This document shows, piece by piece, positions 17,524-27,574 of a stretch of 27,574 nt of DNA. A program made the translations under genes and the position numbers. The stretch comes from a virus, in IMG/VR virus record IMGVR_UViG_3300018080_000507, positions 1-27,574 of that record, one strand, 5' to 3'. The stretch's first letter is position 1; the number at the start of each line of letters is the position of its first letter. The notes below the pieces were generated by a model. That model ran no database searches. It was not told the origin of the DNA and saw nothing but the letters and a program-made list of their open reading frames with translations.

Positions 17524-17556
17524 ATTTCACAAAACGGCCCCATCTGTTCAAAAATA

Positions 17557-17592
17557 GCCCGATTATTTCACGAAAAGCCCGATAATTTCACG
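17557..17592 (+). repeat. Two 16-bp direct repeats upstream of P1
   Basis: GCCCGATTATTTCACG (17557-17572) and GCCCGATAATTTCACG (17577-17592), one mismatch, 20 bp apart (about two helix turns). A partial third copy, AATTTCAC, lies at 17523-17530. Candidate protein-binding sites. Between here and the promoter, 17593-17667 shows only A/T tracts (17637-17657) that may act as an UP element. Confidence 0.55.
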
Positions 17593-17667: not shown

Positions 17668-17705
17668 TTGACAAACCCTTAAAATGGGCCTATATTCTAT
17701 ATAGG
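17668..17705 (+). promoter_or_regulatory. Promoter P1 with palindromic operator
   Basis: TTGACA (17668-17673), 17-bp spacer, TATATT (17691-17696); predicted start near 17703. A perfect inverted repeat CCTATAT-TCT-ATATAGG (17689-17705) covers the -10 box and start site, an ideal position for a dimeric repressor. The same module recurs at P2. Confidence 0.85.
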
Positions 17706-19344: not shown

Positions 19345-19481
19345 CAGCGCCGCGAGGCCGTGAGAGCCCCCAGGACGGCCGTGGGCAAACAGCCGCCCCA
19401 GGGACCGGCCAGGCCCGAGAACGTGCCAGGAAGGCCCAACAGCGCCGGCGCAGGGCCCCAAAGCGCCGGGCCCCGGCAAAT

Positions 19482-19495: not shown

Positions 19496-19523
19496 TTCAA
19501 AGCAAGCCCAAATTGTGCGACCT

Positions 19524-19664
19524 ATGGGACCGATGGAACCTGTGAAACCGATGGAAACGATGGAAACGATGGAAACCGCCAAGTTTTCCACATATTCACA
19601 AGTTATCCACAAAAAACCAATGGAAATCATGAAACATGTGAAACCTATGAAACCAATGGAAACC
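19524..19664 (+). other. Origin-like region: 9-bp iterons flanking DnaA boxes
   Basis: Six tandem 9-bp units of consensus RTGRAAMCN occupy 19524-19577 and five occupy 19620-19664 (for example ATGGAAACG, GTGAAACCG, ATGGAAACC). Between them lie TTTTCCACA (19584-19592), a near-box ATATTCACA (19592-19600) and a perfect DnaA box TTATCCACA (19603-19611). A/T-rich sequence (about 19665-19695) follows. This matches iteron-type replication origins that recruit host DnaA. Promoter P2 starts 40 bp downstream. Confidence 0.65.
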
Positions 19665-19704
19665 AACAAAGGCCAAAAAACTTTCAAAAAAACGACACAA
19701 CCCC

Positions 19705-19741
19705 TTGACAGACACCGAATAAAGGACTATATTCTATATAG
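19705..19741 (+). promoter_or_regulatory. Promoter P2 with operator, twin of P1
   Basis: TTGACA (19705-19710), 17-bp spacer, TATATT (19728-19733), predicted start near 19740. Inverted repeat CTATAT-TCT-ATATAG (19727-19741) covers the -10 and start. The leader GGATGAACAAAACAAAGGAG (19741-19760) follows. The spacer sequence differs from P1 while the -10/operator/leader part is conserved. Confidence 0.85.
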
Positions 19742-19769
19742 GATGAACAAAACAAAGGAGACCGAAACG

Positions 19770-19985
19770 ATGAACGCAAGCACAATCACCGAGTACAGCG
19801 CCGGCGGATTCACGGTCCACGGGGCCATGATCGGCCGCGACGGATTCCGCACCGAGGCCGAGGCCAGGGAATACGCCCGGCACATGGCCAGCCAGCCCGG
19901 CGTCGCCCCCTTCTTCGAGATTTACGCCTGGGACGCGGACGGCAACAACGAGCACATCGGCACCGAAGGCCGCGAGGAGGCCTGA
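19770..19985 (+). CDS. First gene of the P2 operon, small unknown protein
   Basis: 71 residues from ATG 19770 with AAAGGAG upstream. The in-frame AUG at 19743 near the mRNA 5' end would add MNKTKETET, nine codons as in the P1 operon. Sequence: ITEYSAGGFTVHGAMIGRDG FRTEAEAREYARHM, then FFEIYAWDADGNNEHIG; a small alpha/beta protein of the type seen in phage early regions. Not recognised. Confidence 0.72.
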   Translation: MNASTITEYSAGGFTVHGAMIGRDGFRTEAEAREYARHMASQPGVAPFFEIYAWDADGNNEHIGTEGREEA

Positions 19986-22251: not shown

Positions 22252-22494
22252 ATGCCCAAACCGAAAACCGACCCCGAGGTCCGCGGCGCCTTTTCCATTG
22301 CCACGGTCGCGCGAGCTTTGAACGTAAGCCGCACGACCGTGTGGGACTGGGCCAAGGACGGCCGGCTCGAGGCCTTCCGCTTGACCAAGAGCCAGAAAAG
22401 CCCCTATCGCATCCCCCGGAGCGCCCTGGTCCGGCACTACGGCGAGGACGTGGCCGCGCATTGCGACCGGATCGAAGCGGCACGCAAGTCATGA
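22252..22494 (+). CDS. Excisionase/MerR-type helix-turn-helix protein
   Basis: 80 residues from ATG 22252, chosen for its AGGAGG; the in-frame ATG at 22174 lies upstream of the predicted transcript start. AFSIATVARALNVSRTTVWD (residues 13-32) is a helix-turn-helix with the WAKDGRLEAFR turn and IPRSALVRHYG wing of the HTH_17/excisionase group. It should bind DNA and, being first under its own promoter, may regulate the early promoters or replication. Targets are unknown. Confidence 0.8.
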   Translation: MPKPKTDPEVRGAFSIATVARALNVSRTTVWDWAKDGRLEAFRLTKSQKSPYRIPRSALVRHYGEDVAAHCDRIEAARKS

Positions 22495-23504
22495 CCAACG
22501 GCGGGACCCCGGACCCGGGATCGATTGCCAGCGAGATCCGGGCCGACCTTGTAACCTACAAGGCCGAGAAGCGGAGGAAATGGCGGCCCAAGAGCAACGC
22601 CGCCAGCCAACTCGGCCATCCTTGCGCCCTTGAAACCGGGCGCTATTTGTACATCCGGCGCATCACGCCGGAGGAAAATCTTGCCTTGCACCCCGTGGCC
22701 AAGCAGTTTTTATTTGATGACGGCAACACCCACGAGGAAGCGGTCATCGCGGACTTGAAGGCGGCCGGCCATCAGGTCGACCGCGGCCAGGCCAGCTACA
22801 CCTGGGACGCCTACCAGATCAGCGGCAAGATTGACGGATTCATTTACACGAGCGCCGGCGCCTTCCCATTGGAGGCCAAGGCCATGAGCCCCTCCCTTTT
22901 CCGCGCCGCGGCCAAGGCCGCCATCAACGGCGTCTTGACATGGGACCGGATAAAGGCCACGCGCAACGACTGGATCGCCAAATACGCGGTCCAGCTTAAC
23001 ACCTACCTGCTGATGACCGGCCGGCCCCTTGGAATTTTCGCTTTCAAGGACAAGGAAAGCGGGGATATTGCCATTTACGGCTGGGCCCTGGACTACGACC
23101 TGGGCGAGACCGCGATCAAGCGCGCCGAAGAAATCAACGCGGCGATGGCCGGCACGGGCCCGGAACCCAAGCATTGCACGCGGCCCGACCTTTGCGGCCG
23201 ATGCGAGATCTGCCACATTTGCAAGCCGCCCTTGGTTCAATTCGGGGAAACGCGCGAGATCATGGACAACCCCGACCTCGAGGCCAAGCTCATCCGCCTT
23301 GAAGAATTGGAGCCGGCCTACAAGGAATATAAAACCTTGGACGAACAGATCAAGGCCGCGGTCCGCGGCAAAATCGGCGTCCTTGGGGATTTTGAAATTG
23401 ACGGGGCATGGAGCGAAAGCCCGGCCCAGGTCATCCCCGAGCACACGGAACCACCGCGCCGGCAATGGCGCCGGAAAATTACCAAATGGAGGAAAACAGC
23501 ATGA
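22491..23504 (+). CDS. Cas4/RecB-like PD-(D/E)XK exonuclease
   Basis: 337 residues, ATGA-coupled to the HTH gene. Nuclease motifs: His81/Glu82 (THEEAV), Asp115 (SGKIDG), Glu128-Ala-Lys130 (PLEAK) and Gln168...Tyr172 (YAVQLNTYL), the order of the RecB nuclease family. Cys45 (GHPC) and a C-terminal cluster Cys229, 235, 238, 241 and 244 could hold a 4Fe-4S cluster as in Cas4 and AddB. It likely resects phage DNA ends and works with the next protein as a two-component recombination system. Confidence 0.78.
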   Translation: MTNGGTPDPGSIASEIRADLVTYKAEKRRKWRPKSNAASQLGHPCALETGRYLYIRRITPEENLALHPVAKQFLFDDGNTHEEAVIADLKAAGHQVDRGQASYTWDAYQISGKIDGFIYTSAGAFPLEAKAMSPSLFRAAAKAAINGVLTWDRIKATRNDWIAKYAVQLNTYLLMTGRPLGIFAFKDKESGDIAIYGWALDYDLGETAIKRAEEINAAMAGTGPEPKHCTRPDLCGRCEICHICKPPLVQFGETREIMDNPDLEAKLIRLEELEPAYKEYKTLDEQIKAAVRGKIGVLGDFEIDGAWSESPAQVIPEHTEPPRRQWRRKITKWRKTA

Positions 23505-26702: not shown

Positions 26703-26872
26703 CATGGTCAGGACAAACCAGAGCAACCCAACCTTTCGGCAAGCGCCGCCGTCTCATGTCCTGACCCGGGGGCGCACCATTGCCGGAAACGCGGCCCCGG
26801 GACCGGAACGAAGGAGCGCCATCGGCCTCCTTTGTTTTGTTCATCCAACCCGGTCCCGGGCCGCCTTTTTTT
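26702..26872 (+). ncRNA. Predicted regulatory RNA with antisense to the early leaders
   Basis: About 170 nt from P4 to an intrinsic terminator. A 5' hairpin pairs GGTCAGGACA (26706-26715) with TGTCCTGACC (26757-26766). Bases 26757-26768 are also a 12-nt exact complement of the P3 leader (22183-22194). Bases 26827-26846, in the terminator loop, are a 20-nt exact complement of the P2 leader (19741-19760), including its Shine-Dalgarno, and match the P1 leader with one bulged A. An inner hairpin AAGGAG/CTCCTT (26811-26832) could hide the anti-SD part until pairing starts at GTTCATCC. The idea that it blocks early translation or causes early termination is inference. It could also be an attenuated leader of the initiator gene downstream. 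Confidence 0.6.
26791..26872 (+). terminator. Terminator of the P4 RNA, large anti-leader loop
   Basis: GCGGCCC-C-GGGACCGG (26791-26806) pairs with CCGGTCCCGGGCCGC (26850-26864): 15 bp with a single bulged C, followed by seven T (26866-26872). The 43-nt loop is unusually long and contains the antisense segment. It also ends readthrough from the P2/P3 operon. Confidence 0.85.
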
Positions 26873-26902
26873 CCGGACCTGGCAACGGAGGAGCGGCGGA
26901 AA

Positions 26903-27574
26903 TTGTACTCGCAGATTGAAACGACCTTGTGGGGCGAGACCTGGTGGCAGGAAACTAGCCAGGGCGCAAAATTCCTTTACTTGTATCTTCGGACCAACGA
27001 CCACCGGCACCTGTCCGGCTTGTACGAGATCACCGACCGGACAGCCCGCTTTGAGACCGACATGGAGGCCGTGGCCTACGAGAGAGCCCTGGCCGAGCTT
27101 GTAGCCCTGGGCCAGGTAAAGCGGGACGGGGCCCTGGTATGGATCGTCGAGGACTTGAAGCGCCGGCCGGAAGCCACCCTTTCACCCAAAATCGTCCGGG
27201 CCGTGGCCAAACAGGTCGAGCGGCACCGTGGGAGCCCCCTCGCGGCCGAATTGTTGCGGAAATATTCAAAAAGGTTAAAGGGTATCCATACCCTACCGAT
27301 AACCCATGGTAAGGGTAAGGATACCGTAGGGATACCGTCCATTGATGATGAAGATGAAGGAATAATTAAGAAAGTAAAACCAATACAATCATCAATGAAC
27401 CCTACCGCTACCCCTTCGATACCCTATCCAAACCCTACGGAAACCGGCGACGAATTCCCGGCCCTTGACGGGCCCTGGGCCGGCATACCGGCCTGGATGG
27501 TCAGCACCAACCCCGAGGCCGAGCCCGGGGCCTTGCAAAAGGCTTTTCCCAGGTACAACTACACCGCCCCCAGC
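26903..27574 (+). CDS. Replication initiator, O-like (3' partial)
   Basis: Open from TTG 26903 to the window edge (224 codons); GGAGGAG (26887-26893) supports this start, and the frame is open upstream without an ATG. The first ~115 residues look like the winged-helix domain of phage replisome organisers (LYSQIETTLWGETWWQETSQ GAKFLYLYL, HLSGLYEITDRTARFE, ALAELVALGQVKRDGALVWI VED). A low-GC linker full of repeats follows (27280-27440), as in lambda O where the origin lies inside the gene. The C-terminal part continues outside the window. It should bind origin repeats and load the helicase. Confidence 0.68.
   Translation, partial: MYSQIETTLWGETWWQETSQGAKFLYLYLRTNDHRHLSGLYEITDRTARFETDMEAVAYERALAELVALGQVKRDGALVWIVEDLKRRPEATLSPKIVRAVAKQVERHRGSPLAAELLRKYSKRLKGIHTLPITHGKGKDTVGIPSIDDEDEGIIKKVKPIQSSMNPTATPSIPYPNPTETGDEFPALDGPWAGIPAWMVSTNPEAEPGALQKAFPRYNYTAPS
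27280..27440 (+). repeat. Repeat-rich, A/T-rich segment inside the initiator gene (candidate origin)
   Basis: Contains palindrome GGGTATCCATACCC (27280-27293), direct repeats GGATACCGT (27319-27327 and 27330-27338), and ACCCTA words at 27290, 27399, 27421 and 27432, around an A/T-rich stretch (27341-27395). The local base composition departs strongly from the rest of the window. Confidence 0.55.

Follow-up and report, generated by a model that had tools for sequence, protein, structure and literature searches.

Direct repeats and DnaA boxes lie beside A/T-rich DNA in the iteron origins of plasmids such as P1, F and pSC101, and the same combination is found between positions 19520 and 19660 of the viral DNA analysed here, raising the question of whether this locus starts replication or controls the early promoter, P2, that follows it. 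The window, by which is meant the whole stretch analysed, is a 27,574-base virus record that is classed as linear and is probably a fragment; it begins in the capsid gene region (PF03864), tail and lysis genes follow, and a replication gene is cut off at its end. The explanation that fits best, which is put forward tentatively, is that 19520-19660 is a cis-acting control element of P2, on which filaments of a putative BldC/Xis-like protein would occupy both repeat arrays, with host DnaA bound between them.

A repeat array around three DnaA boxes

The locus is made up of the following parts:

19520 to 19573, forward strand: left block, six unspaced 9-bp direct repeats (AMCNRTGRA), found by self-match and Tandem Repeats Finder
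19574 to 19615, forward strand: core between the blocks, 42 bp
19584 to 19592, forward strand: DnaA-like box TTTTCCACA, found by motif search
19592 to 19600, forward strand: near DnaA box ATATTCACA, one mismatch from TTATNCACA, found by motif search
19603 to 19611, forward strand: perfect DnaA box TTATCCACA, the sole one in the window, found by motif search
19616 to 19660, forward strand: right block, five unspaced 9-bp direct repeats, found by self-match and Tandem Repeats Finder

The units are in register within each block and read, in order, ACCTATGGG, ACCGATGGA, ACCTGTGAA, ACCGATGGA, AACGATGGA and AACGATGGA on the left and ACCAATGGA, AATCATGAA, ACATGTGAA, ACCTATGAA and ACCAATGGA on the right, with position 4 of the consensus free and a partial unit at the right edge of each block, which for the right block is part of a sixth. 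Self-match at a lag of 9 is 0.80 in the left block and 0.67 in the right (the latter measured over 19616-19663), and 9 is the top lag among lags 4-15 over the whole window. Over 45 columns the best lag-9 score is 36, whereas none of 2000 local dinucleotide shuffles exceeded 28; in Tandem Repeats Finder the left block scores 61 and the right block 42. Tandem 9-bp units are found nowhere else in the window. The first-pass annotation's description of six and five tandem units around a 42-bp core is therefore confirmed, the lag-9 score lying beyond the shuffles, and only the bounds need correction, as its start at 19524 falls in the middle of a unit and the register begins at 19520.

The core, which spans about four helical turns, holds the only two TTWTNCACA sites present on either strand of the 27.6-kb window. 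A same-strand pair of such sites at most 30 bp apart arose in none of 1000 shuffles of the window and in none of 20,000 local shuffles; the pair of DnaA boxes is beyond chance. All three boxes in the core share one orientation, so that the motif search of both strands bears out the perfect, consensus-matching and near boxes, co-oriented, that had been noted previously. The array together with its boxes is a real, non-random element.

Two promoters, one with an array

The surroundings of the array include these features:

17668 to 17704, forward strand: promoter P1, like P2 in hexamers, palindrome and leader
19465 to 19477, forward strand: terminator-like hairpin lying after the P1 genes and before the array; matches of this kind are no more frequent here than expected by chance
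19705 to 19733, forward strand: promoter P2, TTGACA-17-TATATT, 11 of 12 consensus matches
19727 to 19741, forward strand: palindrome CTATATTCTATATAG, a 15-mer over the P2 -10 element
22491 to 23504, forward strand: Cas4-domain exonuclease, downstream of P2

P2 begins 44 bp past the last full 9-bp unit, and the lowest-GC 100-mer of the window (31% GC) begins at 19592, in agreement with the earlier placement of the array just upstream of P2 and beside A/T-rich DNA. As expected of a DnaA-regulated promoter, a cluster of boxes thus lies upstream of a promoter. The 15-bp palindrome is identical at the -10 elements of P1 (17690-17704) and P2 (19727-19741) and is present nowhere else in the window; it is probably the operator of a regulator that the two promoters share. 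P1 shares its promoter sequence and palindrome with P2 but has neither a 9-bp array nor a DnaA box upstream, which makes the array an addition found only at P2. Two further repeats were observed in the window: an inverted copy of the P1/P2 leader (26822-26846, 96% over 25 bases), which lies just upstream of the replication gene and has no promoter, and a 20-bp direct repeat in two copies (17547-17590) upstream of P1.

Downstream of P2 lie a winged-helix gene (22252), the gene for the Cas4-domain exonuclease (22491), its neighbour (23501) and a DnaD-like gene (26882), and their order and strand suggest that all four are transcribed from P2.

A candidate protein for the 9-bp units

The first of these genes encodes a protein of a type that could occupy the array:

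22252 to 22494, forward strand: 80-amino-acid winged helix-turn-helix protein, excisionase/BldC-like, preceded by AGGAGG and downstream of P2

The product matches HTH_17 (E 7e-10, in the longer reading of the ORF) and passes the cut-off of the excisionase family TIGR01764 (30.4 bits against 28.8), with HTH_BldC in second place; for the BldC family proper (NF033787) it scores 22.2 bits, well below the NCBIfam cut-off of 77. In a Foldseek search with a structure model built from the single sequence (mean pLDDT 81), ranks 1-9 were all chains of Pukovnik Xis or BldC-DNA structures (E 0.026-0.061), and the VIA Z-scores were 7.4 for BldC, 6.6 for Xis and 5.1 for RdfS; with all of these Z-scores below 8, the predicted fold match to BldC/Xis taken alone is modest. 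A phmmer search of the PDB with the same product found no BldC.

BldC occupies unspaced direct repeats head to tail, with one subunit to every 9-bp site, and a 36-mer is filled by four of them (PMC5859096, in the part covered). Because BldC, its structural relative, uses unspaced 9-bp repeats, the product of 22252-22494 is the candidate binder of the array. This coincidence between a 9-bp period and a type of protein is the main argument for a P2 control element, and it is circumstantial; other excisionase-type proteins are described with sites at 10-11 bp or one-turn spacing (PMC7498355, in the part covered). Speaking against BldC-like binding, the sequence of the units does not match BldC's published AATTXXXX(C). 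Weighing against the P2 control element more generally, the window has no other tandem units at which the same protein might bind a second time, and the A/T-richness of the array, with its lowest-GC 100-mer, would suit an origin equally well.

In the mechanism that is proposed, winged-helix monomers would load head to tail, one per 9-bp unit, to form two short protein filaments, one per block, that bend the DNA. The likeliest binder would be the phage's own BldC/Xis-like product, and with its gene located downstream of P2, the loop would be autoregulatory. Host DnaA, when bound to the core, may make it easier or harder for the two filaments to join, and P2, with its recombination and replication genes, would thereby be tied to the replication state of the host, whether the effect is activating or repressing. 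A stronger version, that the level or nucleotide state of host DnaA decides whether the filaments join and in this way switches the recombination-replication operon on or off at the early promoter, is considered rather unlikely. If the proposed mechanism is right, a single element would join a head-to-tail filament protein with the host replication initiator and would give the phage a direct means of sensing imminent host replication. The first-pass annotation, whose interpretation is partly supported as a whole, had also offered DnaA-linked transcription and operator sites for P2 as readings of the array; both agree with the location just before P2, with the period of 9 bp at which BldC binds head to tail and with the presence of a BldC/Xis-like protein in the phage.

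The units could instead be operators of a regulator that is encoded outside the fragment, for example a ribbon-helix-helix repressor, with the DnaA boxes as a separate input. The linear 27,574-bp record may be missing regulators, and omega of pSM19035 also binds runs of short repeats over promoters (PMC5016525, in the part covered). A candidate whose nearest structural relative matches the period is, however, already encoded downstream of P2, and an outside regulator is regarded as an unlikely alternative to the P2 control element.

Origin or promoter element

The same letters have also been read as an iteron-type origin, in which DnaA would load on the boxes, the repeat units would be occupied by a phage initiator, and melting would take place in the A/T-rich DNA on the right-hand side. 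Direct repeats, the fragment's only DnaA boxes and the lowest-GC 100-mer of the window do coincide here, in favour of such an origin. However, among the scanned neighbours of the array there is no match to a Rep protein and hence no adjoining initiator gene; iterons of plasmids usually measure 17-22 bp; GC skew, itself indecisive, has no switch at the array; and a search of 72,556 plasmids for similar DNA gave nothing better than E 0.07, over 12% of the query. A gene of a recognised initiator type is present elsewhere, moreover, and has its own repeat cluster and the lowest-GC 60-mer:

26882 to 27574, forward strand: DnaD-like helicase loader/replisome organizer, cut by the contig end, its true start probably slightly downstream
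27281 to 27454, forward strand: rival origin candidate inside the DnaD-like gene, where an A/T tract adjoins repeats of the GGTATCC/GGATACC and ACCCTA types

The lowest-GC 60-mer of the window (27% GC) begins at 27340, inside the DnaD-like gene. The repeat score of this gene was reached by one of 300 synonymous-codon shuffles, and those of four related phage genes by 0, 1, 0 and 5 of 300. These four were drawn from six matched phage records, a duplicate and Escherichia phage LMessi being excluded, and the end of one of the genes (L033) was set by hand and may overrun the stop. The control genes were not uniformly free of an excess: the score of the tape measure gene was reached by 3 of 200 shuffles, and those of the other four by 36, 160, 61 and 16 of 200. 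A similar GGTATCCATA repeat is found in the replisome-organizer gene of Geobacillus virus E2. Lambda-type origins lie inside initiator genes, and since repeats and an A/T tract occur together inside a replisome-organizer gene, with an excess of repeats in related genes, 27281-27454 appears, on sequence grounds, to be a stronger origin candidate than the array.

The plasmid-type origin that had first been proposed for this locus accordingly keeps its repeats, boxes and A/T-rich DNA and is weakly supported, with no adjoining Rep initiator, no ParA/ParB-like gene among those named in the window and a better candidate about 7.6 kb away. An iteron-type origin at the array is judged unlikely, on a par with an outside regulator, these two being the main rivals of the P2 control element; an auxiliary DnaA-dependent origin is possible, as no other 100 bp in the window are as rich in A/T. 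The lesson may be a general one: direct repeats with DnaA boxes should not be taken for an origin before the initiator gene has been checked for a better one.

Searches for related loci

Close relatives were not found. Megablast of positions 1-25000 against 50,697 phage records gave no match, no relative emerged when viral contigs were scanned with the capsid, 23501 and winged-helix proteins, and searching for exact copies of the P1/P2 leader yielded no relative either. Distant blastn returned weak partial matches only, the best being E 0.02 among phages, in the leader, and E 0.07 among plasmids. An alignment of two rows for the Cas4-like exonuclease led to six distant loci (L023-L028, 29-38% identity) in which no TTWTNCACA box and no tandem units occur, three of them being contigs of 4.2-6.3 kb that may miss the equivalent region. 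As far relatives, three of them short, these array-less loci are uninformative on function and neither support nor refute it.

Pattern searches gave matches and no relative of the array. Tandem ATGGAAACN was found at seven viral loci, three of which (L008, L011, L012) have the same sequence around the match. At five (L006, L008, L010, L011, L012) it lies at or near ORF starts and encodes Met-Glu-Thr repeats, an arrangement suggestive of duplicated start-codon regions; of the two left over, L009 lies inside a 3412-amino-acid frame and L007 in a 70-amino-acid frame only. The three-box cluster was found at one viral locus, inside a long coding frame, and a box with two units at two viral loci, with identical sequence around the match and inside long frames, and at four cellular loci. 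Unit-like matches were also seen near metal-efflux genes in a Sulfitobacter plasmid (L029). In Pseudoalteromonas phage J2-1, reached via a weak blastn match, DnaA boxes at 2004 and 2022 are followed, in a parallel to P2 that counts in favour of the control element, by a promoter-like site at 2109 (region L030:1995-2136), such sites being no more frequent there than by chance (4 found, 3.2 expected).

Remaining readings

The whole 140 bp might be a single DnaA array, in which three good boxes are flanked by weak sites in the opposite orientation. Read as NRTGRAAMC, the units resemble the reversed box TGTGGATAA at five of nine positions, by eye, and tandem TGTGGAAAC or GGTGGAAAC units lie beside DnaA boxes in three cellular contigs (L017, L019, L020). 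One of these three matches (L017) is inside long frames, however, and in most units the GTGGA of the box is replaced by ATGGA, with four or more differing positions in all, by eye, making this reading improbable. A role as a decoy that titrates DnaA was also considered and set aside, as three boxes seem too few.

It is similarly improbable that the array is the partition site, or centromere, of a plasmid-like prophage, in the manner of parC of R1. The layout in two blocks fits split parC/tubC sites (PMC5016525, in the part covered), but R1 has its promoter inside the core, and here the core holds DnaA boxes and the promoter lies outside. In addition, no ParA, ParM or TubZ and no ParR/TubR-like gene is named among the scanned proteins of the window, an incomplete genome; the ParA/ParB genes for which the first-pass annotation had suggested looking are thus not among them. 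An attachment site with sites for an excisionase was considered as well and is a possible reading; nothing in the location beside a promoter calls for one, and no integrase is named among the scanned proteins of the window.

That the repeats are coding, as Met-x-x repeats in a frame at 19515-19985 that is open and in frame with the 71-amino-acid gene at 19770, and with the ORF-start positions of five of the seven viral ATGGAAACN loci in its favour, is very improbable and was rejected, for this frame crosses P2 and the Shine-Dalgarno sequence of the next gene and starts with a GTG, at 19515, before which no Shine-Dalgarno sequence is seen.

Comparison with known systems

Set beside the P2 control element, the iteron origins of plasmids have repeats about twice as long and an initiator gene that adjoins them. 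Short repeats of other lengths are used elsewhere, those of omega of pSM19035 being 7 bp and unspaced and those of parC of R1 being 11 bp. A literature search covering the starts of abstracts returned no report of a phage promoter at which DnaA boxes are flanked by short repeats.

Three systems share part of this arrangement. Like the array, parC of plasmid R1 has two blocks of short direct repeats around a short core, but that core is the par promoter, and its function needs ParM and ParR (PMC5016525, in the part covered). In the replication region of lambda, host DnaA binds boxes near a phage promoter, as would be the case in the array core, and touches the control of both transcription and replication; the lambda boxes, in contrast, lie downstream of pO, and flanking short repeats are not mentioned in the covered text of that account (PMC3985674). 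Apl of phage 186 is an excisionase-type phage protein that binds cooperatively to seven direct repeats and regulates the early promoters pR-pL through them, but with a spacing of 10-11 bp and with sites between face-to-face promoters, and the covered text does not mention DnaA boxes (PMC7498355).

Another likeness is to Streptomyces BldC at the whiI and smeA-ssfA promoters, where a small stand-alone MerR-like winged-helix protein binds unspaced 9-bp direct repeats, in varying number, upstream of genes; the differences lie in its consensus, AATTXXXX(C), and, in the covered text, in a repeat number of two to four and in DnaA boxes, which go unmentioned there (PMC5859096). With operators of the BldC/Xis type, the array shares both its unspaced 9-bp repeats and a small winged-helix protein that is encoded by the same element.
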